Source of the DNA: Prevotella sp.
Lineage (GTDB): Bacteria > Bacteroidota > Bacteroidia > Bacteroidales > Bacteroidaceae
NCBI GenBank assembly: GCA_016290175.1
Contig: JAEETD010000006.1
Coordinates: 1 to 64,000, forward strand
Direction: 5' to 3'
DNA: 64,000 nt
In this document: positions 33,718 to 55,051 of the stretch, in pieces
Position numbering within the stretch: position 1 is the first letter of the stretch
Layout: the number at the start of each line of letters is the position of its first letter
Translations under genes and position numbers: made by a program
Notes under the pieces: model-generated
Told to the model about the DNA's origin: nothing
Database searches by the model: none
What the model saw: the letters and a program-made list of their open reading frames with translations, nothing else

Positions 33718-34617
33718 ATGGCAAAGGAAAACATTGCTTTTTTGGTAAACCTCCGCAAGAACACCCAAGAGGGTTCGCCGATGGAGGGTCGTTACTACCC
33801 TGAGGCCGAGTCGAAGGAGACCCTTTCGACCAAGGGTTTCGCCAAGCACGTCTCTGAGCACGGCGGCACGCTGGTGACGCTCGAGTTCATGCAGCTCGTC
33901 TTGGCAGCCATCGTGAAGTGCCTCAAGGAGATGATGAGTCACGGTCAGCCCGTGAAGCTCGACGGTCTGGGCACCTTCCGCCCTACTGTTACCTCTGTTA
34001 AGAACGGCGCCGCCACGATCGAGGATGCCCTCCGCATGGGTGTCAACAACATGGTTGCCGGCGTTAACTTCGTGTTTATCCCCGAGAACGCCCAGGGTGA
34101 GGAGATCACCTCGAAGAAGTTCAAGGATCAGTGCTCATTGCAGTTCGCCTACCTCGTGGAGACCGTCAAGAAGGTCATCGGTGGCAAGGAGAAGAGCTAC
34201 ACCCTGCGCACCCCGCTTTCGGCCTGGGGCATCATCAGCGCCGACGAAGAGGGCTCTGAGGGCTCTGAAGGCGGCGAGACGCAGCAGGGCGGCCAGGGCC
34301 AGCAGGGCAATCAGAATCAGCCCACGGGCTATGCGCTGACCATCAGCAAGACCGGTAGCGGTAGTGCAAGTGTGACTCATGATGGCAACGCCGTGACTTC
34401 TGGCGCTTCTCTGAACGAGGACGATGAGGTGGAGATCAGCATCACGCCCGCCAGCGGTGCAACGCCCACTGCAACCATCAACGGTTCGACCATCGAGCTG
34501 ACCGCGGACGGTGGTGTCTACTCTGGTAGCTTCGCTATGCCTGCCCAGGCTTCGACCCTCGTGATCAATTCCGGCACTGGCGGCGGTGACGGTGGCGACG
34601 GACTGACGAACGACTAG
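33718..34617 (+). CDS. HU-fold DNA-binding fusion protein ending GGDGGDGLTND
   Basis: HU-like N-terminus (LDGLGTFRPTV), Gly/Gln linker, bacterial-repeat-like C-terminus. Confidence 0.75.
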   Translation: MAKENIAFLVNLRKNTQEGSPMEGRYYPEAESKETLSTKGFAKHVSEHGGTLVTLEFMQLVLAAIVKCLKEMMSHGQPVKLDGLGTFRPTVTSVKNGAATIEDALRMGVNNMVAGVNFVFIPENAQGEEITSKKFKDQCSLQFAYLVETVKKVIGGKEKSYTLRTPLSAWGIISADEEGSEGSEGGETQQGGQGQQGNQNQPTGYALTISKTGSGSASVTHDGNAVTSGASLNEDDEVEISITPASGATPTATINGSTIELTADGGVYSGSFAMPAQASTLVINSGTGGGDGGDGLTND

Positions 34618-38669: not shown

Positions 38670-41609
38670 ATGGTAACAAAGAAAAAACAGTTTGAGAAGC
38701 CCTCGATGATAACAAGAGCTTACACAACAGCCTCCTCCAGCTGCAGGCAACTAAGTTTTGGAGGTGCATGGCGGCGCCTTAGTCTGACGCTGCTCGTCGC
38801 GCTCTGCTGCCACACCGCTGCAAGCGCAGAGACACTTACGGTTTATGATGGGACGAATGATTCCCAGTATCTCCCTGTATACGGGTATTATGCAGACATG
38901 TCAGATACCAAATCCGAGTTTGTCATCCCCAAAGGACAGTTGGGTGATATGGAAGAAGGCACTATCTCCAAACTGAAGTTTTATCTTAAGACAAGCTTAA
39001 CTGCCGCCTGGACTGCTAAGTTTCAGGTGTATCTCAAAGAAATTGATGCAACCACATTGACGGGTATTGTCGGCCCCGATGCCAGCACCGTGGTCTATAC
39101 CGGAACCTTGGATGCCACAGGAACGGAGATGACGGTGACATTTGACACACCATATACCTACAATGGTGGCAACCTGCTGATTGGTACAAATGTCAGTGAG
39201 AAAAGTAGTAATTGTAACAAAGCATATTTCTATGGTGTTGATCAAAACGAGAATACTGGATGTTATAGAGGAACTCTGTCAAAGTTCATCCCAAAGACCA
39301 CATTCACCTACACACCCTCCAGCAGCGTGGTGTCTAAGCCGAAAAATCTGGCTGCCTCGAACATCACGCACGAAAAGGCTACCATCACCTGGATAAGCGA
39401 TGAATCTGCCTGGGACATCGCCTGGAGCACCGATCCCGACTTTAATCCGGCATCAGCTACCACACGTGCCGACAACGTGAGCGAAAAGACCTACACCATC
39501 ACCGGTCTCAGCCAGTTGACCGACTATTATGTTGCCGTGCAGAATGCCGGTAGCGGTAAATGGAGCTCAACGTTGCATTTCAAGACCGCGGCTATAGCCA
39601 CTGCCGTCGGCAATAGCTGGAGCGAAAACTTTGAAAGTCCCGGCGGATGGGATCTCATCAATGGTGAACTTACCAACCAGTGGACTTGGGGCACCGCTGC
39701 CAACAACGGCGGTACGCACGCCCTCTACATCTCCAACGACGGCGGTACAACCAATGCCTATACTTTTATTACTAGTAATACGATAGTGTATGCCACAAGG
39801 TTACTTACCTTCACCGAAGGGACATTCGAGTTCTCCTACGACTGGCGGGCCTACGGTGAGAACAATAGTGACTATCTGAGAGTAGCCCTGAAACCAGCAA
39901 CAGAGTCGCTCACTGCTGGTACGACCGCTCCTACAGGTCTTAATGCTACGTCACTCCCCACGGGCTGGATAGCCTTGGACGGTGGGAGTCAACTGAGTGG
40001 GGTTACGGCATGGCAACACAAAGATGCAACCATCGATGTCGCCGCTGGCGACTACTATCTGGTCTTTGCCTGGCGCAACGACGGTGGTGCAGGAAATAAT
40101 CCACCGGCAGCCATTGATAATGTGAGCATCAGTAAATATACTGATAAGGTTACAGACTTGGCCGTGAGCAACATCACTACCACCGCCGCCACCATCAGTT
40201 GGAACGGCAACGGCGATAGTTATAACGTCAGATATACAAAACTGTTCCTCACTGAAGGCTTTGAAGGTGGTAGCATGCCCGCAGGATGGACAAAAGAGGG
40301 TACTGGTCTTTTTTCAATAGGAACAGGTGACAATGAAACTGACCGTGGCAGCCATAGTGGCAACAAAAATGCAAGGTTTCCGTCTTCTTCCTCTAATATA
40401 GGCAACCAGACATATCTTATCACCCCAAGCATGGATTTAAGTGGGGAGACAAGCCTGAAACTCTCTTTCTGGTATATCAACAGAGCTGCTGTTAGTCATA
40501 TCGATGGCATCGGCGTGTACTATCGTGTGGGCACTGAAGGTGAATGGAACGAACTGTGGAGCACCACAGAAGCACATGGATCTTGGACGAACCAAGAGGT
40601 TACGCTGACAGGCCTTGCTGCCAACTACCAGTTAGGCTTTAAGATGACAAACAACGATGGCTATGGAGTCGGATTGGACGATATCCAAATTACCCCCGCT
40701 GACTGGCAGACCGTCAACGACATCACAACCAAGAGTACTACCCTTACAGGACTTGACGCTAACACCACATACGGATGTCAGGTGCAAAACGTGAAGGGTG
40801 GTAATACTTCCCTCTGGTCGCCTATTGCTACGTTTACCACTGCGGCGGCTGCCGTCGTTCTGACCGACGGTGAAGACCTGTCGGCCCTGTCAGCATACGC
40901 CGGGCAGAAGGTTGTCGTGACCTATTTGCGCTCATTCACCAGCGGCAAGGCTTCTACGGTGTGTGTGCCGTTCGCCTTCGACGTAACATCGGCTGGTGGC
41001 ACGTTCTACACGTTTACGGGCATCACGAAGAGCGGTAGCACATATATTGCCAATATGACGGCAAGTGTGAGCAAGACGCTGACACCTAATACGCCTTACG
41101 TCTTCATGCCGAGTGCAACGGGCGACATGGATTTCAGCGGTACATATACGCTCCCTGCCTCGCTGACGGCCAGCTCGGCCACAAGCGGCGACTGGAAATT
41201 CTACGGCACCTATACGCGGCTGACTTACGGCACGGCTCCGATGACGGGCTATGTGTATGGCTTTGCCTCGGTGGATGCAACGGTGGAGGGTCACGAAGTG
41301 ACAGCGGGCGAGTTCGTACGTGCCACGACGGGTGCTGGTGTTCCCCCGATGCGCTGCTACCTGATCTACAAGGACGGCGAGGCTTATACCAATGCCCGCG
41401 CCCTGACGCGCGGCGAGGAGATGCCGCAGAGCATCATTGTGCGCCTGCTGGATGCGAACGGGCAGACGACGAGCATCGGCTCGCTGGACATGAAGACGGG
41501 CGAGATGGAGTTCGATGGATGGTACTCGCTCGACGGTAGCCGCCTCGAAGGCAAGCCCACAAAGAAGGGACTGTATATCAATAATGGAAAGAAGGTTATC
41601 ATTAAATAA
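38670..41609 (+). CDS. Large secreted fibronectin-III / choice-of-anchor (MAM-like) surface protein
   Basis: Repeated VTDLAVSNITTTAATISWNG-type Fn3 motifs, signal peptide-like LTLLVALCCHTAASA. Confidence 0.75.
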   Translation: MVTKKKQFEKPSMITRAYTTASSSCRQLSFGGAWRRLSLTLLVALCCHTAASAETLTVYDGTNDSQYLPVYGYYADMSDTKSEFVIPKGQLGDMEEGTISKLKFYLKTSLTAAWTAKFQVYLKEIDATTLTGIVGPDASTVVYTGTLDATGTEMTVTFDTPYTYNGGNLLIGTNVSEKSSNCNKAYFYGVDQNENTGCYRGTLSKFIPKTTFTYTPSSSVVSKPKNLAASNITHEKATITWISDESAWDIAWSTDPDFNPASATTRADNVSEKTYTITGLSQLTDYYVAVQNAGSGKWSSTLHFKTAAIATAVGNSWSENFESPGGWDLINGELTNQWTWGTAANNGGTHALYISNDGGTTNAYTFITSNTIVYATRLLTFTEGTFEFSYDWRAYGENNSDYLRVALKPATESLTAGTTAPTGLNATSLPTGWIALDGGSQLSGVTAWQHKDATIDVAAGDYYLVFAWRNDGGAGNNPPAAIDNVSISKYTDKVTDLAVSNITTTAATISWNGNGDSYNVRYTKLFLTEGFEGGSMPAGWTKEGTGLFSIGTGDNETDRGSHSGNKNARFPSSSSNIGNQTYLITPSMDLSGETSLKLSFWYINRAAVSHIDGIGVYYRVGTEGEWNELWSTTEAHGSWTNQEVTLTGLAANYQLGFKMTNNDGYGVGLDDIQITPADWQTVNDITTKSTTLTGLDANTTYGCQVQNVKGGNTSLWSPIATFTTAAAAVVLTDGEDLSALSAYAGQKVVVTYLRSFTSGKASTVCVPFAFDVTSAGGTFYTFTGITKSGSTYIANMTASVSKTLTPNTPYVFMPSATGDMDFSGTYTLPASLTASSATSGDWKFYGTYTRLTYGTAPMTGYVYGFASVDATVEGHEVTAGEFVRATTGAGVPPMRCYLIYKDGEAYTNARALTRGEEMPQSIIVRLLDANGQTTSIGSLDMKTGEMEFDGWYSLDGSRLEGKPTKKGLYINNGKKVIIK

Positions 41610-41627: not shown

Positions 41628-41771
41628 ATGAAGAAACAATATGAGAAGCCTTCGATGAAGGTATACGAACTGAAAGGACGCTCACAGATTCTGGCTGGAA
41701 GCCCCGACCCATACGACCGCGACTTCGGCTACATGCCTGGCGTCAACGATGATATGAACAAGACGGCGTAA
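41628..41771 (+). CDS. Short LAGS-motif peptide A
   Basis: MKKQYEKPSMKVYELKGRSQILAGSPDPYDRDFGYMPGVNDDMNKTA with AAGGAGGA RBS; not in ORF track. Confidence 0.75.
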   Translation: MKKQYEKPSMKVYELKGRSQILAGSPDPYDRDFGYMPGVNDDMNKTA

Positions 41772-41858
41772 AAAAGTGTGCAGAAGAAAAGAATAAACAA
41801 AAGGTTTCTTTTTGTGCACTAGGCTAGGTCTTTGATCTTTATTAAAGAAGAGAATAGG

Positions 41859-41885
41859 AAACGGAAGTCAGTCGGCTTCCGTTTT
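41859..41885. repeat. AAACGGAAGTCA...GGCTTCCGTTT hairpin unit
   Basis: Related copies at 42218-42245, 46138-46166, 48222-48247. Confidence 0.75.
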
Positions 41886-41910
41886 TTTCGTCGTACGCTC
41901 GGCAAACCCA

Positions 41911-41933
41911 GACAAGGGGCAGGTCCCTGTCAG
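41911..41933. repeat. REP-like unit GACAAGGGGCAGGTCCCTGTCAG
   Basis: GACA/TGTC arms, core similar to other units. Confidence 0.6.
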
Positions 41934-42005
41934 GAGGATATAATCGGACTGGCGTTTGGCTACTCGTTTTACTTTGGCAAGGAGGGTAAATGCCGGTTAC
42001 GCCTG

Positions 42006-42034
42006 TACACAGTAGGGTCGGTTCCTACTGTGTA
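42006..42034. repeat. REP-like palindrome TACACAGTAGGGTCGGTTCCTACTGTGTA
   Basis: 11-bp perfect arms. Confidence 0.9.
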
Positions 42035-42253
42035 TAGATAAATATACCGCTGCAAAGATACGCGCTCGGCTCTGCCGCTTGCTACCGCAGGGACGCAAGA
42101 ACTAAATGGGTCGGGGGACGGTCCTCTGATCTGTTTTAAAGATAAAACCAGGAAACGGAAGTCCGCAGGAGATCGCGGGGACAGGTGATTGATCTTTTCC
42201 CCTAAGATGAGAATAGGAAACGGAAGTCAGCCGCAGCTTCCGTTTCTTCGTTG

Positions 42254-42330
42254 TAGTCATGGGGACAGATTCTGTCTTAATCTCCAAATGGATCATGGGG
42301 TCGGTTCTATTGATCACTTATCAAGGCAAA
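42254..42330. repeat. REP composite matching 38266-38414
   Basis: tagtcatggggacagattctgtctt...gatcatggggtcggttct..tgatca..tatcaaggcaaa. Confidence 0.75.
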
Positions 42331-42359
42331 TAATATGAGAATTAAGACAGTAATGAATC

Positions 42360-42404
42360 ATGACACACCGTGCCTGACACACCGTGCCTGGCACCGTGTG
42401 ACAT
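42360..42404. repeat. REP-like unit TGACACACCGTGCC...GGCACCGTGTGACA
   Basis: Tandem plus inverted copies of TGACACACCGTGCC. Confidence 0.75.
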
Positions 42405-42656
42405 TATCAGATTCCTTCAAAATCGCCTCTTTTCCGTATTCGTGCCACCAGAATGTGGTGCCATAGAGGGCGTAGTTTGGACAACTTTGGGGCCTATTTC
42501 CTCAATATGTCCAAAGATGGGGTGTTTGTCCACACAAGTATGAGAAGAATCTGCGTTTTTTCTTGGAATCGGAAGAAAATCGCCGTAACTTTGCATCGTC
42601 GAAAAGAAACAGACGACAAAGATAACAATAGTATAAACATTAAAATATTTAAGATT

Positions 42657-42941
42657 ATGACAACAAAGAATTTCAATGCAAAGAAGATGCTCATGAGCGC
42701 AGTTGCAGCAGTAGTTTTCTCATTCGTGTTCACCACCAGTGCTAACGCAGGTACCACACCTCAAGAGAATACGCAAAGGACCAATCTTGAAGTCCGAGTC
42801 AAAGCGAGTCCTAATGGGGATAGCCAAAAGAAGCAAGAACAGAATAAAGATCAGAAGCAAGAAAAGAAGCAGGAACAGAAGCAAGAAAATACAGATGTTG
42901 TATCCAAACTCATCCAGAAGTTTGGCATTCGTGTAAAATAA
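42657..42941 (+). CDS. Small secreted Lys/Gln-rich protein
   Basis: Signal peptide AVVFSFVFTTSANA then KKQEQNKDQKQEKKQEQKQE. Confidence 0.6.
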   Translation: MTTKNFNAKKMLMSAVAAVVFSFVFTTSANAGTTPQENTQRTNLEVRVKASPNGDSQKKQEQNKDQKQEKKQEQKQENTDVVSKLIQKFGIRVK

Positions 42942-43055
42942 CCTGCTACTGATCATAAGACAATAAACAAAGCGTCCTGGATTCGTTTCCAGGACGCATT
43001 TTCTTTTCAAAGAGCACAAAGTTATTACGGTGCAACGAAGTTTTTCCCATAATTA

Positions 43056-43087
43056 TTTGGAAGTTTCAACTAAAGTTCGTATCTTTG
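43056..43087 (+). promoter_or_regulatory. Bacteroidetes-type promoter (TTTG-N20-TATCTTTG)
   Basis: Consensus -33/-7 match; near-identical copy at 51661-51692. Confidence 0.65.
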
Positions 43088-43093
43088 CAAACG

Positions 43094-43245
43094 GTTAAAT
43101 GAATCAGGATACAGATTATAGTTTTTTTAAAATTTGATCATAAATTGTTTTAGGTTTAATAATGTCGAGAAGACATTGTATAGGTTTCTATTTCTTAGTA
43201 TTAGACTAAGTTAACTATCAGCTCGCAGCGGCGGGCCTTTTTTGT
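43094..43245 (+). ncRNA. Candidate structured ncRNA, about 150 nt
   Basis: Promoter upstream; hairpins AATGTC-gagaa-GACATT, CTTAGT-attag-ACTAAG, GCTCGC-agcg-GCGGGC-U-run; no substantial ORF. Confidence 0.5.
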
Positions 43246-43284
43246 ATATATACCGTGCCCAAACATCAAAAAATGTCCCCAAAA

Positions 43285-43502
43285 TGTCCCGAAAACGTTT
43301 CAAATGTTTCTTTTGTATCACGTTTCTTTTGTATCACGGCGGGGATGAAATTTCCTATTAATATATGACATTACTTATTTTTATTTTTTAATATATTTAT
43401 AAAAATAAAATAATATAATATATATATAAAAATAAAGACAAATTTCCCGCACGAGGCAAAGATACAAAAGAAACGTGAAACATTTGAAACATTTGAAACG
43501 CT
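43285..43502. repeat. AT-rich core flanked by inverted CGTTTCAAATGTTTC / GAAACATTTGAAACG arrays
   Basis: Complementary blocks either side of an AT-only tract; third block at 45950-45993. Confidence 0.75.
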
Positions 43503-43809
43503 TGTACTACTTTATGTCGAGAAGCCCCTCAAAATTGTCTGGGATGGATATCTTAAAAAATGTTGAACGACTAGAAAAACCTGGAGTTCCGAACTGAAAA
43601 CACGTTGACGCGCCCTTACAAATATGTTCGCATCGAACTAGGAATGGAAAAAATACACATTGCGGAAAAAGTTTTGGAATATTATTCCGTAAAGAATGTT
43701 AACGTTTTCGGAACTTTTTCAGGATTCACTTGTTTTCGTTTTTATATGTGCTTACCTTTGCAGTGCTTTCTTTTCATTCAAGTATTAACAATTTAAATTT
43801 TTAAAGATT

Positions 43810-44190
43810 ATGGGTAATATCAAAGTTAGAGGCAAAATGCAGCGTGTGGCGGTCATCAACCAGAACCGCGTCCTCGCTCGTGCCGTACGTTACTCTACAG
43901 TGAAGCAGAATGAACTGGTGAGCTACGCCTCACAGTCATCCCACATCCCTGAGAGTCAGCTTCGCGCCTGCACACTGGCAATCCGCGAGGCTATCGCCTA
44001 TTTTGTGCTGAACGGTCACCATGTTGACCTCGGCAAGTTCGGTTATCTTGGCATCCGCTCTAAGCAGAAGGCTGCAAACGATGCAGAGCAGGTCAGGAGT
44101 GATCTCGTAAAGCGCGTTACCATTGGTTACACCCCCTCGGTGGAAATCAAGAACGCCATCGCTTCAATCAGAATAGATACAGAAATTTAA
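43810..44190 (+). CDS. HU-fold DNA-binding-like protein
   Basis: HHVDLGKFGYLGIRSKQKA; HU-like size and fold signature. Confidence 0.65.
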   Translation: MGNIKVRGKMQRVAVINQNRVLARAVRYSTVKQNELVSYASQSSHIPESQLRACTLAIREAIAYFVLNGHHVDLGKFGYLGIRSKQKAANDAEQVRSDLVKRVTIGYTPSVEIKNAIASIRIDTEI

Positions 44191-44202
44191 GGATTTACAG
44201 TT

Positions 44203-45879
44203 ATGAAAAAGGGTCAAATCAACATCAAGTACACTCCCCGTAATATTGCTTTCCTTAATAAGGAGGCTCTTGTGGGACTGGCCGACCGCTACTCTACCAT
44301 AGAGTACAGCGCCATCATCGCCTATGCTGCCAAGGCAGCTGCTGTGCCCGATTCAAGCATCGAGATGGCCATGGAGGCTATCTTCGACGCCATGAACTAC
44401 TTCGTGCTCAACGGCCACAGCGTCCAGATTCCGAACCTCGGAACGTTCTCCATCGGTGTCCGCGCCAAGAGCGCGCTGACAGAGCAGGCTTTCCAGAACG
44501 ACTTCTCTCAGAACCTCAGGAACGTGAAGATCAACTTCCTGCCCGATCCCGAGCTGAAGCAGATGCTTGCCTCCACCTCGATCATCACCAGTTCTGAAGT
44601 GCCTGAGGGCTACTCCAGCTCGGGCGTGATCAGCGTGACCAAGGGCTGTTTCCTCCGCAGCGGGCTTGAGGTGCCCATCAACGAGGGCCTCTGCTACGCC
44701 CTTGAGGAGATTACGGGCTTCGAGGTGAAGGGCTCGCGCCTCGTGGAGAAGTTCATCGGAGAGAACCCCGTTGTCATCACCTTCATCGACGATGCGGGTG
44801 AGGAGGTGGTCTACACACCGACTTCCAGCCGTGCCATCGTACAGTCGTACGACCGCATCAGCATCGACATGCGCTGGATCAGGAACCAGAACGCCTCGTT
44901 CAAGTATATCAAGAAGGTGGAGGTGAAGAACCTCAAGGCAGACGATGCCGTGATCTACTCCAAGACGCTCGGAACACCCGTAGCAGGCGTGCCTGCCATC
45001 GGTGCCCTGGTGGTAGACGAGGTAGCCGCCGCGCCTGGTGCCACACTGGCATTCACCGCCGGTAAGCTGGTGAAGGTACAGATATTCGGTGTCAACCTGG
45101 CTGTGGTGGAGAACTTCTACGCCGGGGGTACCCAGATGGAAGTGAAATCCGCCAGCGTGGGCTATGCGGAGTGCACGTTCACCCCTGCCGCATCGGGCAA
45201 CTACCCCATCCTGGGTAAGTATAACGAGGAGGCTGATGCCACCAACACCTACAACATCAGCTTCGGTCAGGCTGGCGGCTCCAGCATCAGCAGCGTGACG
45301 GCCAACGGCGATCCGCTCGTCAATGGCGGTTCTACCAACATCACCGCTGGCAGCAACTACAACCTGAGCATCCTCGGTTCGGGTCTCGGCGAGCTGACGG
45401 CTGCCAACTTCACCCTGCCTGGCGGTGCCACGCTGAGCATCAACTCTCAGTCGGACACCATGATCGGGGCTACCATCAGCAACACACAGGCCGGTACGTT
45501 CAAGGTGACGGTCGACGGTGTGGATATCTTCACCGCTACGCTGGTGGCTGTGGTGCCTGCCGTCTCGGTAACGGGCTACAAGCTCACCCAGAACGGTGCC
45601 ACCCAGTCGATGAGCACGGCCGTATCGGCAAACGATGGCGGTGCGTTCAGCATCTACCTCGTTGGTAACGGCCTCGATGATCTCACCGACGACAGCTTCA
45701 GCGGCACCAACATATCGATCTCAGAGTATGACGCGGCCACCCACAACCTTGTGGGAAGCCTGAGCGGCGGCTCTTCTTCTCAGCTGGTCATCACGGCCAA
45801 TGCTACGACGATCGGAACGATCACCATCAGCCCCTATTCCAGCGGCGGCGACGGTGGCGACGGTCTGACAAACGACTAA
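44203..45879 (+). CDS. HU-fold N-terminus + Ig-like domains, ending GGDGGDGLTND
   Basis: NGHSVQIPNLGTFSIGVRAKSA; IPT/Ig-like repeats; tail shared with 33718-34617. Confidence 0.7.
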   Translation: MKKGQINIKYTPRNIAFLNKEALVGLADRYSTIEYSAIIAYAAKAAAVPDSSIEMAMEAIFDAMNYFVLNGHSVQIPNLGTFSIGVRAKSALTEQAFQNDFSQNLRNVKINFLPDPELKQMLASTSIITSSEVPEGYSSSGVISVTKGCFLRSGLEVPINEGLCYALEEITGFEVKGSRLVEKFIGENPVVITFIDDAGEEVVYTPTSSRAIVQSYDRISIDMRWIRNQNASFKYIKKVEVKNLKADDAVIYSKTLGTPVAGVPAIGALVVDEVAAAPGATLAFTAGKLVKVQIFGVNLAVVENFYAGGTQMEVKSASVGYAECTFTPAASGNYPILGKYNEEADATNTYNISFGQAGGSSISSVTANGDPLVNGGSTNITAGSNYNLSILGSGLGELTAANFTLPGGATLSINSQSDTMIGATISNTQAGTFKVTVDGVDIFTATLVAVVPAVSVTGYKLTQNGATQSMSTAVSANDGGAFSIYLVGNGLDDLTDDSFSGTNISISEYDAATHNLVGSLSGGSSSQLVITANATTIGTITISPYSSGGDGGDGLTND

Positions 45880-45917
45880 CTTCTTTCTTTTTTACGGTTT
45901 TGATTTGAATTGCGTTT

Positions 45918-45942
45918 CCCCTGCTCCGGCAGGGGATTTTTA
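45918..45942 (+). terminator. Terminator CCCCTGCTCCGGCAGGGG-ATTTTT
   Basis: GC stem and T-run after stop codon. Confidence 0.7.
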
Positions 45943-46080
45943 TGCCCAAAAACGTTTCAAATGTTTCAAATGTTTCACGTTTCTTTTGTATCACGAGCAC
46001 TTTTTCCTGTGATGTCTCTCGTAAAGTATGACATCACAGGAAGAACCGTGTCACGATGGGGTCAGGATAGTTTGTGACTG

Positions 46081-46252
46081 TATCAAAGTGTCCAGACCCC
46101 GGTGTGACATGAGGCGATTATTTCAAAAACCAGTCGAAAAAACGGAAGCCGAATGACTTCCGTTTTTCCATTTTCTTCTTTGAGCGCGGGGTATGTCACA
46201 AAGTGTCCAGACCCCGGTGTGACACAAAGTGTCCAGACCCCGGTGTGACACG
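46081..46252. repeat. Three copies of AAAGTGTCCAGACCCCGGTGTGACA unit
   Basis: Copies near 46086, 46199 and 46227; related unit at 48306-48340. Confidence 0.8.
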
Positions 46253-46296
46253 GCGGTGTTTTTGGGATTATTAACATTCCGACAGGCGGCTGGCTG

Positions 46297-47886
46297 TTAC
46301 CGCGCCATGAGACGCACCATCCACGTTTCATCACTAGCTCTATTATCCGTTGTATGGGCACGGGGGTCTGTAACAGTGACATCACCGTCAGCAATGATGT
46401 ATATGGTCGCTTGATCGCCGAGGTCCTTATTGGTCCAGTAAGGTCCTTCTATCCACAAGAAACCGGTATCAAATTGGGCAATTGTCCTGCCATAGCCATT
46501 CACACACGCTTTGCTCCATTTTTTACTTTTCCAGCTTAGGGCACTGAACTGTTCCGGGCTTGGCAGAACTCCCAATTCATAAGTTTTACCCTTTGCTTCT
46601 AAATATGTGTAACGTGGTGTGAAATAACCTAACTTTTCCGGGACAGACACACCGAAATCACAGGTATACCAGGTGCCAACATCATCTTTAATCGTTATTC
46701 CGTCATCTGCGAAGTTTCGAAGCTTGACCGTCTCGTATTCTCCCATTTTCTGCCATTTGCCGATGGGGAGCTTTTCGTCGTCTTTGTAAGTGTTAATATT
46801 GTTGGTGGCTGGCAGTCTGATGGCGTCGTGGCTGGCAAGCGTCTTGCCCACCACATAATAGTCGTAACGCTCGTCACGTATGACGGTGGGACCACTACCG
46901 GAGGGGTGGTCGTATTCATCGCCGGAGTTGTTGTTGCCCCCGTTGGTGTAGCTGGTCTTGGTCATGGCGAAACAATAATTGCCGGGACAACGGTAACTGT
47001 CGCTCAGTTTCCCGTAGAAGAGATTGCCCTTCACGTTGCCGTCATTATAGACATATCTCGGCAAAGTAAAATCATTCGCCAATAGCCTCTCATTCTCGGT
47101 GGTCTCGATCTCGGTGATGGTGCCCTCGCTGCTAATGGAAACCACGCGAACGGGGTTGACCGCGTCCAAAACCAACTGGCATTTAATATATTGATCGTCC
47201 TCGCCATCCGGCAAGAAGATCTGCACAAAGCCGTCGGCAATCATCATGTTGAAAGCGCCGGACACGGTATTGTCAACCACTTCGTAAGGGAGCGTGCCCG
47301 TCATGTAGTAGGCGCGGGGTGTCTCGCTGAACGCGAAAGTATGATATCTGCCTTCTTCGTCAGGCTCCCCGCCGGCCGATACGGTGACATCATTTCCGTA
47401 GGGCAGGTACACCGCCGTCATCGTGCCCGTGGGGTAACGAGACAACTCAGATGATAGCGCTCCGGGCGATGCTGTAGGACCCTCATACTCCACGGAAGTC
47501 CATGTCGTACCGTCGTAGGTCATCTTCAGGTGTACCGGGACTCTGACTCCGTAGTAATCAGAATTTTCGTCTTTTCTGGTTTCGTGGAAGAACACGAAGA
47601 TGGCATCGCCGGCCTCCCAGTCCTGCTTCACGGCGCGGGTCGTGGCGGGAAGGGCTTCTCCGGCAGGCACGTCGTCGTCCCACGACTGCCACCGCCATCC
47701 GCCGCTCTCGCCGCCGCGCGTCGTGGCCACGTCGTTGGGGTGCGTGGCGGTCAGGTTGAAGGTGATGGGCTGCGCCGGCTCCGTCTGCGTGGGCTCCGTC
47801 GGAGTCAGGGGTATGTCGTTGTCGTCGCTGTTGCAGGCAGCCAGCGCAAGGATGGCGCACAGCAGTAATATTGCTCTTGTCTTCAT
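46297..47886 (-). CDS. Fimbrillin-family-like lipoprotein
   Basis: Lipobox ALAACNSDDND, TTRAVKQDWEAGDAIFVFF; GGAGG RBS. Confidence 0.65.
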   Translation of the reverse strand: MKTRAILLLCAILALAACNSDDNDIPLTPTEPTQTEPAQPITFNLTATHPNDVATTRGGESGGWRWQSWDDDVPAGEALPATTRAVKQDWEAGDAIFVFFHETRKDENSDYYGVRVPVHLKMTYDGTTWTSVEYEGPTASPGALSSELSRYPTGTMTAVYLPYGNDVTVSAGGEPDEEGRYHTFAFSETPRAYYMTGTLPYEVVDNTVSGAFNMMIADGFVQIFLPDGEDDQYIKCQLVLDAVNPVRVVSISSEGTITEIETTENERLLANDFTLPRYVYNDGNVKGNLFYGKLSDSYRCPGNYCFAMTKTSYTNGGNNNSGDEYDHPSGSGPTVIRDERYDYYVVGKTLASHDAIRLPATNNINTYKDDEKLPIGKWQKMGEYETVKLRNFADDGITIKDDVGTWYTCDFGVSVPEKLGYFTPRYTYLEAKGKTYELGVLPSPEQFSALSWKSKKWSKACVNGYGRTIAQFDTGFLWIEGPYWTNKDLGDQATIYIIADGDVTVTDPRAHTTDNRASDETWMVRLMAR

Positions 47887-47905
47887 CTTTTTGTCCTCCT
47901 TTCTT

Positions 47906-48067
47906 TTACCATTCTTTTTCCTCGTTAAAGGGGTTATAGGTCGGGGCCACAGTGGTTTGTCCGCTGCCTGCCAGCAGCTGCGGATGCTCACCCAGCTGAT
48001 ACACCCGCATCGCGGGCCTCGCGTAAGCTCGCTTCGTTAGAGCGCTTTTTGTTGGTTTTGTATTCAT
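47906..48067 (-). CDS. Short LAGS-motif peptide B
   Basis: MNTKPTKSALTKRAYARPAMRVYQLGEHPQLLAGSGQTTVAPTYNPFNEEKEW; immediately upstream of lipoprotein gene. Confidence 0.7.
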   Translation of the reverse strand: MNTKPTKSALTKRAYARPAMRVYQLGEHPQLLAGSGQTTVAPTYNPFNEEKEW

Positions 48068-48156
48068 AACGGTTGGATGATTGAAAAAGCTGATCTCGTG
48101 GTTGGGAATGTTGATTGTAATTGCTGTCATAATCCTAACACTTTCGTTTTACGCCG

Positions 48157-48188
48157 CAAAGATAGGGAAAAAATCAATAACTTCCAAA
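48157..48188 (-). promoter_or_regulatory. Bacteroidetes-type promoter for peptide B/lipoprotein operon
   Basis: Minus strand TTTGGAAGTT...TATCTTTG, 20-nt spacer. Confidence 0.6.
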
Positions 48189-48405
48189 TGATGAGGCGAT
48201 TATTTCAAAAACCAGACGAAAAAACGGAAGCCGAATGACTTCCGTTTTCCATTTTCTTCTTTATAAAAGTTCAAAGACCTGTCACCATTTATCAATCTAC
48301 CGGGGTATGTCACATTGTATCCTGACCCCAGTGTGACACTTCTTTAAAAAGTACACAAAAGGAACCGCATTCTATGCTAAATTCCTAACATTGATTGATA
48401 TTTAA

Positions 48406-49470
48406 CTATATATTTAACACTTGAGGAGCTAGGCTTAGCTCGTTGCTTGTTCGATACACGTTATCTGGGTTATATTTCACTCTGTCTCGGACCATTGCTA
48501 CGAGGATGTGCAGCATCTTATTTTTGATGTTATTATGCACTAGCAGAGGATGCTTGCCACGCTCTATGAGTCGCTGATAATAACTATGTACGTTTATGTC
48601 AAACTTAATTGCAGCCAAGGCTGCTTGTGAGAGCAAAGATTTGATCATCCTGTTGGCAAAAGGACTGACCTGAGGCCTGCTGTTAACGCTGGTGCCCGAT
48701 TGTCGTCCGAACGGAGCTATACCATAATAGCAGGCAATCTTCCTTGAGTCCAAGTCAAATTTCTGAAAGTTATCCGTATAGACCATCAGACATGTTGCGT
48801 TCTGCACGCCAATACCAGGCATGGAGGTGATGATGTCGAAGACCTCCCTGAGCTCGTCATCAGAGGCGATAATCTCCTTAATCTTTTGGTCACATTTGAC
48901 GATGGCCTTGTTTACCTCTGTAATAAGGTGTTTGCTGGTAAAGGACATGAAAGCCCTGGCATCCGACTTCTCTTGTGTGAGCCGTTTCTCATCTCTCCTG
49001 ACCGTCAGTGCAACCTTTTGCCTGACAAGGCTGTGACGATAAAGGAACACCTCTCTCAGGCACGTCAGCGAGGCACTCTGAGGCTTGTGCAGTATCATCT
49101 TGTCGTAATTACGCATGGCGTACTCTGCAATGGCGCGTGAGTCTGCCTTGTCGTTCTTCACACGCTGGATACCTGCTGAGTGCTTAATCTTGTAAGCACA
49201 CTCCAGCCACATATCATAGCCCGAGGCATAAAGATAGTTGCTCAGGCCTATACTATAACCACCTGTGTTCTCCCCGCAGAAGAGCCAGGCGTCTGCCGCA
49301 CAGCCATCTGCATGAGCCTTTACCCATTTCGCCAGACAACGGTAGCCTGATGTCTTGTTGTCAAACACTTCGTGCACACTTGGAGCACATTCCTTCAATC
49401 CCTCTGCCTTAATGAGGGTCGCATCAAACTTTTCTTTCGAGAAATCGATGCCGATAAAGATTTTTTTCAT
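48406..49470 (-). CDS. IS110 family transposase
   Basis: FIGIDFSKEKFDATLI, ENTGGYSIGLSNYLYASGYDMW, KNDKADSRAIAEYA, SMPGIGVQNATCLMVYTDNF. Confidence 0.9.
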   Translation of the reverse strand: MKKIFIGIDFSKEKFDATLIKAEGLKECAPSVHEVFDNKTSGYRCLAKWVKAHADGCAADAWLFCGENTGGYSIGLSNYLYASGYDMWLECAYKIKHSAGIQRVKNDKADSRAIAEYAMRNYDKMILHKPQSASLTCLREVFLYRHSLVRQKVALTVRRDEKRLTQEKSDARAFMSFTSKHLITEVNKAIVKCDQKIKEIIASDDELREVFDIITSMPGIGVQNATCLMVYTDNFQKFDLDSRKIACYYGIAPFGRQSGTSVNSRPQVSPFANRMIKSLLSQAALAAIKFDINVHSYYQRLIERGKHPLLVHNNIKNKMLHILVAMVRDRVKYNPDNVYRTSNELSLAPQVLNI

Positions 49471-49740
49471 ACCTTTGCAGCAGTTTTATAAATGAAGGAA
49501 TTGGCCAATAGTTGTCTAGTCTTGGACTCTAAATAGGCTATCATGCCGCTGGCATTCTATCTGGACTTTGCAACTAAGCAGGAAGGACTAAGACGGTTCA
49601 TAGACTCTAAAGGACTGTAGTCCCTGGATATAGATTCCCTTTCCTGCCGGCCTCTTCCTCCTTCTGACAACAAAGGTAAGGATTTGGCCGTGATAAAGCA
49701 AATTCTTCACTGATATATTCTATCAGAGCGCAAAATTAGA
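49471..49740 (-). ncRNA. Predicted bridge RNA-encoding non-coding end of IS110 element
   Basis: About 270-nt non-coding segment 5' of transposase inside IS boundary; position expected for IS110-group bridge RNAs. Confidence 0.4.
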
Positions 49741-49816
49741 GTCCCTACTGTGTTACGATTCTAAGTTCGAATGCCATGTTTTTGTGTTCGGAGAAATGAA
49801 TCCGCGATTACAGAAA

Positions 49817-51253
49817 TCAATAAGCAAATACGGCAACGACATTGAAATTCGCTGTCTTTTCTAGGCAGTCAAAAATGCAATAAAAAGGTTCGATGATCCA
49901 AGCCTTGCCATCATTGCCAGTAACCTCTGAACTAAACCAGGTATCGTAGATCCAAGCACCAGTAACAATATAACCCGTCAAGATATCATAACTAACAACT
50001 TTTTGGATCGTAAATATATCAGAACCGGAAGAATAATTCAGGCCTTTATTTACGCCGATGGGGGTGGTGGGTGATTTTCCAAAAATACCTGCGTAGAGAT
50101 AGCGCCAGTCAGTGACAGTGGGCATTCGCCAGCCCTGATGCAGTGTTGTGGCGGTGGCGGAAGTGGCGGTATTGTCGTTTGTCACTACGTCGTAAACTGA
50201 TGTCCATGCATTCGTGTTGTTATAGGTTGTGCCGCCGATGGTGATGGGATGGTTCCCAGCATAGGTGCCTATAGCCGTCAAGGCATCGCTCCAGGTTACT
50301 TTATTAGCCGCATCAGACAGCGCGATGGCAAGGAAATGGTTGAAGTATTTGTCAACCGTTCCGACATAGACTATCACGGCCTCTTGTCCACTGGTTCCTT
50401 TCGTTGCGAACTTGCCGTCAGAGAGTATCGCATCACCTACGGTAGCCATCTTCACTGTGCTCTGATAATACTTGCCAGCCACGGTAGCAGTGCTTATGTT
50501 AGCCTTGGCAATATAGGGTTTGCTGTCGATGGTGGCGTTGAACCAGTAGGTTCCATCACCCATTGCGGGCAGAGCTACATACAATACATCAGAGGCAGAG
50601 CCAGGCTTAACGGTGGTAATCACACTGCCAGAGTTGTCGCTGACCTTGAACTCCGTAGCACTCTTAGCTGCAGCGCTGAGATCCTGCAGTGTGAATTTGA
50701 AGATGGCGTTCAGGTTGGTGAGCGTTACGGTTCCCTTCAACGAAGCCGTTGTGCCATCAATCTTCAACTTAGCAGGAGTTGTCGTCTTGCGCAGTTCATA
50801 ATTCTCGGCGATACTGCCAGGACCCGTCAGCAGTCCGTTCTGTAAGTCCAGCAGACCGGTCTTCACGTCTTTGGTCGACTCATCAACTGCCGAATAGGGA
50901 TATACGATGGTTACGTCGGTATCGTCGGCAGGGCTGCCTTCGAGCGTCGTGCTGATGGTGGCGGTACCGCCAGCTTGCGGCGTAACCTCGGCTTCCTTCA
51001 AATAAGTGGTGGATCCGACGGTGTAGATCAGAGCCACTTTCTCGCCAGTAGCCCATGTGGCCTCAATCGTTGTTCCGTTTTCAGTCAGTGCGCGGGTGGA
51101 AGCACTCTCGCCTATGCTGATAGTGGCGGTGAAGGGGATGCCCTCACTCTTGGCGGGCTGCTCAGCAGGGGTCAGAATGTCGTTATCGTCGTTGCTGCAG
51201 GCTACTGTTATCAATGCCAGTGCAGCCATCATGATAATCTTTGTTGCTTTCAT
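49817..51253 (-). CDS. Fimbrillin-family-like lipoprotein
   Basis: Lipobox ITVACSNDDND, STRALTENGTTIEATWATGEKVALIY. Confidence 0.65.
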   Translation of the reverse strand: MKATKIIMMAALALITVACSNDDNDILTPAEQPAKSEGIPFTATISIGESASTRALTENGTTIEATWATGEKVALIYTVGSTTYLKEAEVTPQAGGTATISTTLEGSPADDTDVTIVYPYSAVDESTKDVKTGLLDLQNGLLTGPGSIAENYELRKTTTPAKLKIDGTTASLKGTVTLTNLNAIFKFTLQDLSAAAKSATEFKVSDNSGSVITTVKPGSASDVLYVALPAMGDGTYWFNATIDSKPYIAKANISTATVAGKYYQSTVKMATVGDAILSDGKFATKGTSGQEAVIVYVGTVDKYFNHFLAIALSDAANKVTWSDALTAIGTYAGNHPITIGGTTYNNTNAWTSVYDVVTNDNTATSATATTLHQGWRMPTVTDWRYLYAGIFGKSPTTPIGVNKGLNYSSGSDIFTIQKVVSYDILTGYIVTGAWIYDTWFSSEVTGNDGKAWIIEPFYCIFDCLEKTANFNVVAVFAY

Positions 51254-51294
51254 TGTCTTTACGTTTTTTTTGATTGTTACTACACTGTTGTTGA

Positions 51295-51438
51295 TTAATA
51301 ACTGAACGGATCGCCGCCGTTGCCGTAATCATTGGGATCGCTCAGTCCACTGCCGGCCAGGATCTGCGGCTGCTGTCTCAACTCGAAGACCTGCATCGCA
51401 GGCTTCTCGTACTTTCGTTTCTCTTTGATTGTTGTCAT
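51295..51438 (-). CDS. Short LAGS-motif peptide C
   Basis: MTTIKEKRKYEKPAMQVFELRQQPQILAGSGLSDPNDYGNGGDPFSY; not in ORF track. Confidence 0.75.
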   Translation of the reverse strand: MTTIKEKRKYEKPAMQVFELRQQPQILAGSGLSDPNDYGNGGDPFSY

Positions 51439-51823: not shown

Positions 51824-52654
51824 ATGAAAGAGACGAGATATTACAAGGTGGCAGGACACCGGTTCTGCGTGACGGGCGAGGCGGAAGGCTTTGCCAATTA
51901 TGAACCGTTCCTGTGCGAGGAAGGCGAGACGGTTTTCGCACTGAGCATCGGGGATGGCGAGGCACCGGAATATGTTGAAGAAATAAGACAGGAAGACGAG
52001 GGACAGGAAATCATCTGCGGCAAGACGGCTGCGGACGAAGCGGTGTTCGAATTCCATTGGTGGAACGATACGGCGGGCTGGCTCATCTGCTCTGCCGACT
52101 ACCACAAAGGCCGGCTCATCACGACGGGCAGGCATGTGAAGATGGCCATCGACAACGCCCTGATGGTGCTTTACGCCCTGGCTACGGCCGACCGGCAGAC
52201 GGCGCTCTTCCATGCGGCCGTGGTGAGCTATGAGGGCAAGGGATATATGTTTCTCGGCCCCAGCGGCACAGGCAAAAGCACCCATGCCAGTCTGTGGCTG
52301 CGGTATATAGCGGGGACGGCACTGGTGAACGACGACAATCCGGTGGTGAGAGACGGCGTGGTCTACGGTTCGCCCTGGAGCGGCAAGACGCCCTGCTATC
52401 GCAATGTGCACTATCCCCTGGGAGGCATCGTGGTGCTGAGCCAGGCGCCCTACAACAGGATACAGCGTCTGAGCGGTCTCCATGCGTATGCTGCCCTGGT
52501 GGCAAGCATCAGCGGCAAACGCTGGGATGCCCGCATCGCCGACGGACTGCACCAGACGGAGAACGCGCTGGCCTCTACCGTACCCGTGTGGCATCTGGAG
52601 TGCCTGCCCGACGAAGAAGCAGCGAGAGTGTGCCAATTAACAATTAAGAGGTAA
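51824..52654 (+). CDS. HprK-like (serine) kinase
   Basis: P-loop FLGPSGTGKSTHASLW, LVNDDNPVVR, GSPWSGKTPCYRN. Confidence 0.75.
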   Translation: MKETRYYKVAGHRFCVTGEAEGFANYEPFLCEEGETVFALSIGDGEAPEYVEEIRQEDEGQEIICGKTAADEAVFEFHWWNDTAGWLICSADYHKGRLITTGRHVKMAIDNALMVLYALATADRQTALFHAAVVSYEGKGYMFLGPSGTGKSTHASLWLRYIAGTALVNDDNPVVRDGVVYGSPWSGKTPCYRNVHYPLGGIVVLSQAPYNRIQRLSGLHAYAALVASISGKRWDARIADGLHQTENALASTVPVWHLECLPDEEAARVCQLTIKR

Positions 52655-52666
52655 GAATTAAGAGTT

Positions 52667-53131
52667 ATGATTACCGATGAGCGGATAATAGAGGAGGCGG
52701 TCAGGCTGGTGGAGGACGGCGTGTGCGTGACGCTGCCAGTAGATGGCAACAGCATGCTGCCGTTCATCATCGGTGGCAAGGAGAGCGTCATACTGCAGCA
52801 GTCCGGTGAGCCGAAAGTTGGCGACGTGGTGCTGGCGTGGGTCGAGAAGTCCCGTGCAGGTGCGCCAGCGGCTGTGAGCCACCTCTATGTGGTGCATCGC
52901 ATCATCCGGATCGACGGCGACCATGTGACGCTGATGGGCGACGGCAATATCGCCGGCACGGAGCACTGCCTGCGCAGCGCCATCAAGGCCCGTGTGACGC
53001 ATGTGGTGGATGAAAATGAGAGAACGCATGACATTTATAGCTGGTGGCGGAAACTGGCGGCAAGACTATGGTTCTGGCTGCGACCCGTCAGACGGTATTT
53101 ACTGGCAATATACAGAAGAGTAAAAAGGTAA
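52667..53131 (+). CDS. S24/S26 family peptidase, signal-peptidase-like with Ser-His-type signature
   Basis: VDGNSMLPFI, GDVVLAW, YVVHRIIRI, MGDGN. Confidence 0.75.
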   Translation: MITDERIIEEAVRLVEDGVCVTLPVDGNSMLPFIIGGKESVILQQSGEPKVGDVVLAWVEKSRAGAPAAVSHLYVVHRIIRIDGDHVTLMGDGNIAGTEHCLRSAIKARVTHVVDENERTHDIYSWWRKLAARLWFWLRPVRRYLLAIYRRVKR

Positions 53132-53148
53132 AAAAGTAAAAAGGTAAT

Positions 53149-53421
53149 ATGAGAATCAAGAAAGGATTTGTGCTGCGCGAAGTGTGCGGCGAACGTGTGA
53201 TCATGGGCGAGGGCCTCGGAGCCATCAACTTCAAGAAGATGCTCGCCCTGAACGAGTCGGCCGGATGGCTGTGGAAACAGGCTCAGGAGATGGGCGAATT
53301 CACCGTTGAGTCGCTGGCCGGAAAGCTGTGCGAGGAATACGAGGTGGAGGCCGACGAGGCAAAGGCCGATGTTGCCGACATCATCGCTTCCTGGCGCTCG
53401 GTCAACGTCATCGAAGACTAA
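53149..53421 (+). CDS. PqqD-like peptide chaperone
   Basis: 90-aa; GAINFKKMLALNESAGWLWKQ...ESLAGKLCEEYEV...DVADIIASW. Confidence 0.75.
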   Translation: MRIKKGFVLREVCGERVIMGEGLGAINFKKMLALNESAGWLWKQAQEMGEFTVESLAGKLCEEYEVEADEAKADVADIIASWRSVNVIED

Positions 53422-53443
53422 TTATTCATTATGCTTATTAATT

Positions 53444-55051
53444 ATGAATTACATCTCGTGGCTTTGGCGGAACATGCGGGGCATCCGATGGAATGCCGTC
53501 GCAAGGATCGTGACCGGTGTGACCCAGGTGGTGCTCGGCCTGCTGATGGTATGGCTCAGCAAACGGTTCATCGATGAGACCATCCGCACGGGCACGGCCG
53601 ACGATGTGCTGAGGATGGTCATCTGGCTGGTGCTGACCGTCGTGGGCGGCGTGCTGATGAGTCAGGCTGGCTTCTGGCTGGCCACCTCGGCGAGTGTCCG
53701 TCAGACCAACGCCCTGCGCCTGCGCATCTTCAGCAGCCTCTTCCGCAGGCAGCTCTACGACGGCGAAACACTGCATTCGGGGGATATCACCTCGCGCCTG
53801 GCAAAGGATATCGAACAGGTGACCAACGTCTGCACCGACACATTGCCTCAGATGGTGATCACGATGATACAGCTCTGCGGCGCATTCCTGCTCATGCGGT
53901 GGTTTAATCCGCAGCTGGCATGGGCATTGCTGCTGCTGACACCGCTGGCCATCGTCTTCGGCAAACTCATTGCACGGCGCCTCAGGAAGATGACGCTCGA
54001 CATACGGCAGGACGAAAGCCGCATACAGATGCAGGTGCAGGAGGGCATGGAGCATAATGCCGTGCTGCGCTCGCTCGGCTCTGAGCAATGGGTGACCGAC
54101 CGACTCGACTCGATGCAGCAACGGCTCCGCGGGAACGTGATGCGGCGCATGCGCTTTACCGTCATCACACGGCTCATCATGGGATGCGCCTTCGGACTCG
54201 GCTATCTGCTGGCCTTCGTGTGGGGCGGCATCGGACTGCGCAACGGCACGATTACCTTCGGTGTGATGACCTCGTTCCTGCAGCTCGTCGGCATGATCCA
54301 GCACCCCATCCTGCAGCTGCTGAACATGGTGCCCAGCGTGATCCACGCCACCGCCAGCATCGACCGCCTCGAGGAACTTGATTCTGACAATTCTGACAGG
54401 GGACAGGTACCTGTCAGAAAACAATCCCGCGCTAACAATTCTGACAGGTACCTGTCCCCTGTCAGATTCTCCGACGTGAGTTTCCGCTACGCCAAGGGCG
54501 ACAGGCAGATACTCTCCCACTTCACACATGAGTTCAAGGCAGGCTCCAAGACCGCCATCATGGGCGAGACGGGCATCGGCAAGACCACGTTGTTCCGGCT
54601 GATACTCGGCTTTACCGAGCCTACCGACGGAGAGATCACTGTAGGCGGTGAAATCTGTTTCGTGCCGCAGGGAAACACCCTGATGAGCGGCACCATCCGC
54701 TACAACCTGCAACTGGCCAAGCCCGACGCCACCGACGACGAACTGCGGCAGGTGCTGCATACCGCCTGCGCTGATTTCGTGCTCGACCTGCCCGAGGGCC
54801 TGAACACCGAACTGGGTGAACGGGGCAGCGGACTCAGCGAGGGTCAGGCACAGCGCATCGCTATCGCCCGCGGACTGCTACACGGCGGCGACATCCTCCT
54901 GCTTGACGAGATCAGCAGTTCGCTCGACGAAGCCACCGAACGCGAACTCTTCGCCCGGTTGTTTGCCGCTTGTCCTCAAAAAACCATTCTTTTCATCACC
55001 CATCGTTCCGCCATGTCCTCCCTCTGCGACGATGTGGTGCGGTTGTCCTAA
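53444..55051 (+). CDS. ABC exporter (TMD-NBD) with in-frame REP pair in linker
   Basis: TM helices, Walker A GETGIGKTTL, signature LSEGQAQRIAIARGLL, D-loop region. Confidence 0.9.
   Translation: MNYISWLWRNMRGIRWNAVARIVTGVTQVVLGLLMVWLSKRFIDETIRTGTADDVLRMVIWLVLTVVGGVLMSQAGFWLATSASVRQTNALRLRIFSSLFRRQLYDGETLHSGDITSRLAKDIEQVTNVCTDTLPQMVITMIQLCGAFLLMRWFNPQLAWALLLLTPLAIVFGKLIARRLRKMTLDIRQDESRIQMQVQEGMEHNAVLRSLGSEQWVTDRLDSMQQRLRGNVMRRMRFTVITRLIMGCAFGLGYLLAFVWGGIGLRNGTITFGVMTSFLQLVGMIQHPILQLLNMVPSVIHATASIDRLEELDSDNSDRGQVPVRKQSRANNSDRYLSPVRFSDVSFRYAKGDRQILSHFTHEFKAGSKTAIMGETGIGKTTLFRLILGFTEPTDGEITVGGEICFVPQGNTLMSGTIRYNLQLAKPDATDDELRQVLHTACADFVLDLPEGLNTELGERGSGLSEGQAQRIAIARGLLHGGDILLLDEISSSLDEATERELFARLFAACPQKTILFITHRSAMSSLCDDVVRLS
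54393..54465. repeat. Inverted pair of 25-bp REP units inside CDS
   Basis: Same 25-mers and 23-nt spacer length as 51560-51632; encodes SDRGQVPVRKQSRANNSDRYLSPVR. Confidence 0.95.

Follow-up and report, generated by a model that had tools for sequence, protein, structure and literature searches.

Short YxxP-leader peptides paired with surface-protein genes as candidate substrates of a kinase, peptidase and exporter operon in a rumen-type Prevotella

The peptides and the K-S-B-D operon

The window, as we call the whole stretch of DNA that was analysed, comprises 64,000 nucleotides from a rumen-type Prevotella sp. (contig JAEETD010000006.1, C160 in our numbering), the genome of which is 83% complete. 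It contains three short peptide genes, A, B and C, and an operon of four genes, K-S-B-D (51824–55051), encoding a predicted kinase, a leader peptidase, a recognition element and an exporter. The first-pass annotation of this DNA suggested that the peptides could be substrates of this 51.8–55 kb cluster. Our computational analysis supports that suggestion, and we consider it likely that A, B and C are precursors in a pathway of the ribosomally synthesized and post-translationally modified peptide (RiPP) type, in which K-S-B-D would provide phosphorylation guided by a RiPP recognition element (RRE), trimming and export.

Peptide A (47 amino acids; 41628–41771, forward strand) starts 18 bp after the gene for a large secreted protein, its cargo gene. 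Peptide B is on the reverse strand (47906–48067) and has 53 amino acids when read from its likeliest ATG, at 48067; its open reading frame (ORF) extends to 48130. Peptide C, again on the reverse strand (51295–51438) and 47 amino acids long, is divergent from the kinase gene K. The motif noticed in the first pass is present in all three, which have V-x-x-L-x(4)-Q-[IL]-L-A-G-S in common, with a spacing of four residues between L and Q and not the five given originally. Pfam and NCBIfam searches returned no model covering the peptides, and no signal-peptide-like stretch was seen in any of them by reading the sequence.

All four operon genes are on the forward strand. K (51824–52654) encodes 276 amino acids with the P-loop GPSGTGKST, matches ScmC and HprK-related models of NCBIfam weakly, and has invariant SGTGKST and NDD motifs when aligned with its homologs. 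Its structural model is confident (pLDDT 92), with PEPCKs as the nearest folds in the PDB (E = 6e-9); the PEPCK fold is common to HprK. Together these results identify K as an HprK/PEPCK-type P-loop kinase of predicted activity. S (52667–53131; 154 amino acids) is an S24/S26 signal-peptidase-like leader peptidase by NCBIfam and Pfam, and its Ser29, His77 and Asp92 triad is invariant in an alignment of 16 homologs. The third gene (53149–53421; 90 amino acids) encodes a discrete PqqD-type RRE, here RRE B (Pfam PqqD, 3.8e-14), with a profile that matches the lasso peptide RREs TfuB1 (6jx3, 2e-4) and PbaB1 (9x90, 0.011). D (53444–55051, its start placed at MNYISW) is an MsbA-like ABC exporter by NCBIfam, comprised of the Pfam domains ABC_membrane and ABC_tran alone.

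The K-S-B-D gene order is maintained in relatives, and almost all loci have K together with S and RRE B. Hosts of the operon include Segatella baroniae B14, Prevotella ruminicola KHT3 and Prevotella sp. tf2-5, as well as rumen Bacteroidales metagenome-assembled genomes (MAGs) and MAGs labelled Fibrobacter succinogenes. In several congeners (L138, L140, L150) there is a more distant K-S-B set with no adjacent exporter, seemingly at a fixed site whose neighbours are a gene for a small secreted protein and a sigma-70-like gene.

A peptide family with a conserved leader

A profile built from A, B and C matched six further ORFs in the window's genome at E ≤ 5e-5, which places the motif far beyond chance. 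The genome has nine peptide loci, six of them outside the window, and the six additional peptides have the same start and either LAGS or LVGS. With a profile of these nine sequences, peptides were found in 28 of 48 same-genus genomes, including the window's; 32 genomes drawn from the order's other families gave none. When 300 near-complete genomes from the same family were scanned with a wider leader profile, made from 40 sequences, 112 had peptides; these represent 15 of the 22 genera sampled, with up to 19 copies per genome. The peptide family spans the genus and these 15 genera.

The leader consensus is [KR][KR]x[YF]xKPxMxVxxLx(5)LLAGS, which matches the RRE-binding motif [Y/W]xxPx[L/V/I/F/A]. 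Among 60 distinct peptides the Pro is conserved in 100%, the aromatic position is Tyr in 95% and Phe in 5%, and the last position is Ser in 96% and Thr in 4%. Additionally, Val at Tyr+7 is present in 82%, Leu before AGS in 88% and the Gly in 83%. The Ser of LAGS is at Tyr+19 to +21, mostly +20. The part after the Ser is variable and acidic, averages about 25 amino acids and has Asp, Gly, Glu and Pro as its most frequent residues. The family alignments therefore bear out the conserved N-terminal half and variable remainder described from the three peptides alone, and the conservation of the leader across the 60 is as expected if the leader is under purifying selection. Peptide A and its copy in another genome, G031, differ by two silent and two replacement codon changes, which are too few to gauge selection.

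Association of the peptides with the operon

The substrate proposal is supported first by co-occurrence. Among the 300 same-family genomes K was detected in 111 of 112 peptide carriers and in 117 of the 188 genomes that have none (Fisher p = 3e-16), so that a carrier is almost never without the kinase. Among the 48 congeners, genomes with the full K-S-B-D set average 8.1 peptides and the others 2.0 (p = 3e-5), a difference that persists when the window's own genome is left out (p = 7e-5). Genome G020, close to the window's (LepA 95% identical) and 92% complete, lacks K, RRE B and any peptide.

Further support comes from location and from the YxxP motif of the leader. Eight peptides are within 8 kb of 15 kinases, where 0.5 would be expected, making them about 15 times denser there. 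In one relative (L116/L194) a single run contains a secreted cargo gene, a peptide, an NTP transferase, K, S, RRE B and D, with gaps of 10–12 bp on both sides of the peptide. L185 has the same arrangement minus the NTP transferase. Likewise, two contigs labelled Fibrobacter (L199, L202) carry a cargo gene, a peptide, an NTP transferase, K and S. This suggests that the system extends past the Bacteroidota, unless the bins are contaminated. In L199, L202 and a third contig so labelled, L224, a kinase, an NTP transferase and YxxP peptides were seen; the peptides of L199 and L202 follow a gene encoding a T9SS-like C-terminus of a distinct kind.

Pairing with surface-protein genes

Each peptide in the window has a surface-protein gene next to it. 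The cargo gene before A (38670–41609, forward strand) encodes a large secreted protein of 979 amino acids with fn3 and MAM domains (Pfam) and, by its C-terminal motifs, a short C-terminal domain (CTD), WYSLDGSRLEGKPTKKGLYINNGKKVIIK, of the type IX secretion system (T9SS) type. Downstream of B by 19 bp is a lipoprotein gene with a weak fimbrillin-like match (46297–47886, reverse strand), and 41 bp downstream of C is a gene for a lipoprotein of 478 amino acids (49817–51253, reverse strand). The cargo protein before A itself starts with a leader-like sequence, MVTKKKQFEKPSM (38670–38708), near A's MKKQYEKPSM and ahead of the signal peptide. Judged from the sequence, it may be what is left of a leader that was fused or recombined.

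The same pairing applies to all nine peptides of the window's genome, three with a CTD protein and six with a lipoprotein, and in the family 47 of the 60 peptides adjoin either a T9SS-type cargo gene upstream or a lipoprotein gene downstream. A same-strand gene ends within 160 bp before 32 peptides, and 28 of these 32 genes end in a T9SS-type short CTD. Another same-strand gene follows within 130 bp in 25 cases, of which 19 are lipoproteins and several others NTP transferases. The background frequencies are 1.3% for T9SS-type CTDs and 7.9% for lipoproteins, as measured with our own, crude CTD and lipobox patterns on genes drawn from kinase loci and not from whole genomes. Pfam and NCBIfam models gave no match to the T9SS C-termini. 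The CTD call therefore rests on our pattern and on motifs B, D and E, which have been described in short CTDs of Prevotella intermedia (PMC11969387). We found no literature report of RiPP precursor genes paired with surface-protein genes.

Relationship to linear polyphosphorylated peptides

The closest parallel is with the linear polyphosphorylated peptides (LPP), reported in 2026 from the lpp cluster of Paenibacillus alginolyticus, which encodes LppK, LppB, LppS, LppD and LppN along with a precursor (PMC13381572). The precursor leader is YxxPxVLxHQxIxFETxxS. LppB binds YxxP, LppK adds several phosphates to Ser3 of the core, and LppS (S29, H68, D93) cuts off the leader together with LppB. The authors describe LPP as restricted to the Bacillota (PMC13381572).

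The window operon resembles this cluster in its HprK-like kinase of predicted activity, its discrete PqqD-type RRE, a signal-peptidase-I-like S with a Ser-His-Asp triad and an MsbA-like exporter, and it too has no cyclase. N35 and D74 of RRE B align with LppB N33, which fixes the leader Pro, and D70, which fixes the leader Tyr. The precursors are alike as well: in both systems a conserved YxxP leader, hydrophobic at +5, is followed by a conserved Ser, and the C-terminus varies. In several relatives an NTP transferase (PF14907), corresponding to LppN, adjoins K; none was found in the window's genome, at 83% completeness. The two systems differ in the leader, which ends in LLAGS and lacks HQxIxFET, the Ser being mostly at Tyr+20 whereas that of FETxxS is at Tyr+18. 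They also differ in their hosts, which are Bacteroidota and MAGs labelled Fibrobacter in one case and Bacillota in the other, and in their precursors: up to 19, dispersed and paired with surface proteins, as against one to three inside the LPP cluster. Our best reading is a Bacteroidota LPP-like system, set apart from LPP by its leader and by the lack of an NTP transferase match in this genome. A search of the literature, which did not extend to bioRxiv and most subscription papers, found a single paper that uses the name LPP and no Bacteroidota case.

Four relatives (L117, L118, L119 and L198) carry, beside K, a radical SAM-type gene, another PqqD and a precursor that joins the shared leader to a Cys-rich core. 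In L117–L119 the second PqqD and the radical SAM protein, which Pfam identified in L117, are between the Cys-rich precursor and the kinase region, and these precursors, near K-S-B, have the same leader as the rest of the family. Their leader is of the FxxP form and the RRE there has Ser in place of the Tyr-binding Asp, a hint, from a single lineage, of a matched change. In these loci the one leader system may serve a second chemistry. The shared leader, Cys-rich core and radical SAM gene of these four loci recall the sactipeptide-like radical SAM RiPPs; the window operon, by comparison, has no adjacent radical SAM gene and the window cores have no Cys.

Evidence against and alternative explanations

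Several observations weigh against the substrate proposal. The co-occurrence of peptides and K is inflated by shared lineage, and the full-operon association in the congeners is partly lineage-linked: limited to genomes in which LepA identity to the window's copy is 91% or more, the test gives p = 0.016. In the set of 48 congeners, the presence of K alone has no significant association with the peptides (p = 0.10). Most kinase loci lie more than 8 kb from any peptide, and 117 of the 228 kinase-bearing genomes have no peptide detectable with this profile; several of these have K-S-B without an adjacent MsbA-like exporter. Two genomes, G031 (97% complete) and G001 (79%), have peptides without a detected kinase, although the G031 copy of A is on a 338 bp segment that lacks its cargo gene. 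Finally, the RRE B profile matches LppB (9x8z) weakly (0.93).

Could S and D trim and export the peptides as ordinary bacteriocins or signals, with K acting elsewhere and the peptides left unphosphorylated? The operon does encode an exporter and a leader peptidase, and the cores vary as those of bacteriocins and signals do. However, K is with S and RRE B at nearly every locus, and the Ser near the expected acceptor position is 96% conserved, which makes this explanation unlikely. Or are the small ORFs accessory or regulatory parts of surface-protein operons, such as coupling ORFs, chaperones or anchoring helpers, linked to K-S-B-D by shared lineage? The pairing of 47 of the 60 with T9SS-type or lipoprotein genes, the kinase-less G031 and G001 and the distance of most peptides from the operon would fit. 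The single carrier without K, the enrichment near K, the direct linkage in L116/L194, L185, L199 and L202, and a leader that is a known RRE-binding motif and not a generic one do not, and we give this explanation an equally low probability.

It is very improbable that the peptides are lasso precursors with a cyclase and B2 peptidase encoded elsewhere. A YxxP or WxxP leader, a discrete B1 RRE, an HprK-like kinase and an ABC exporter are all found in paeninodin-type lasso clusters, but the window system has a serine peptidase in place of B2 and no cyclase in the operon, no Transglut_core3 (B2) match was found in the 83%-complete genome, and Asp or Glu at core positions 7–9, the ring-acceptor signal, is present in 23 of 54 peptides where 28 are expected from shuffled cores. 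A double-glycine reading, modelled on the short Bacteroidales precursors with a conserved leader ending Gly-small that are served by peptidase-containing ABC transporters (PMC10352776), was rejected since exporter D shows no C39 domain, the serine peptidase is separate and the leader has YxxP.

Other features near the peptides

Between the loci of B and C there is an IS110-type transposase-like gene (48406–49470). Two proteins, encoded at 33718–34617 and 44203–45879, have an identical GGDGGDGLTND tail, and the second of these has an HU-like N-terminus by eye.

Proposed pathway and significance

If A, B and C are substrates of K-S-B-D, LPP and lasso biochemistry provide a model for their maturation. 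The leader segment [YF]xKPxMxV would sit in the groove of RRE B. Kinase K would phosphorylate the conserved LAGS Ser, perhaps more than once; this Ser matches the LPP phospho-acceptor and so may be where the modification is made, the cut then falling one to two residues ahead of it. Peptidase S, with its substrate presented by RRE B, would take off the leader beside LAGS; the likeliest cut is between L and AGS, in which case the Ser becomes core residue 3, as in LPP. Exporter D would carry out the short acidic product. In this way a single operon could serve many precursors scattered across the genome.

Most precursor genes are partnered by one for a T9SS-type cargo or lipoprotein, and the product therefore probably acts at the cell surface with the partner protein, although a surface role drawn from gene pairing is speculative. 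A bolder version, which we regard as doubtful, is that each of the many cargo proteins and lipoproteins has its own phosphorylated peptide, made by one central set of kinase, RRE, peptidase and exporter and joined to the partner or needed for its anchoring or display, as a new Bacteroidota surface-protein maturation system.

A Bacteroidota version of LPP would bring bacteria abundant in the gut and rumen into the class and, if true, would provide dozens of natural substrates for one RRE. The LPPs described from the Bacillota in 2026 had no known role; the surface pairing, if true, would be the first lead on their function.

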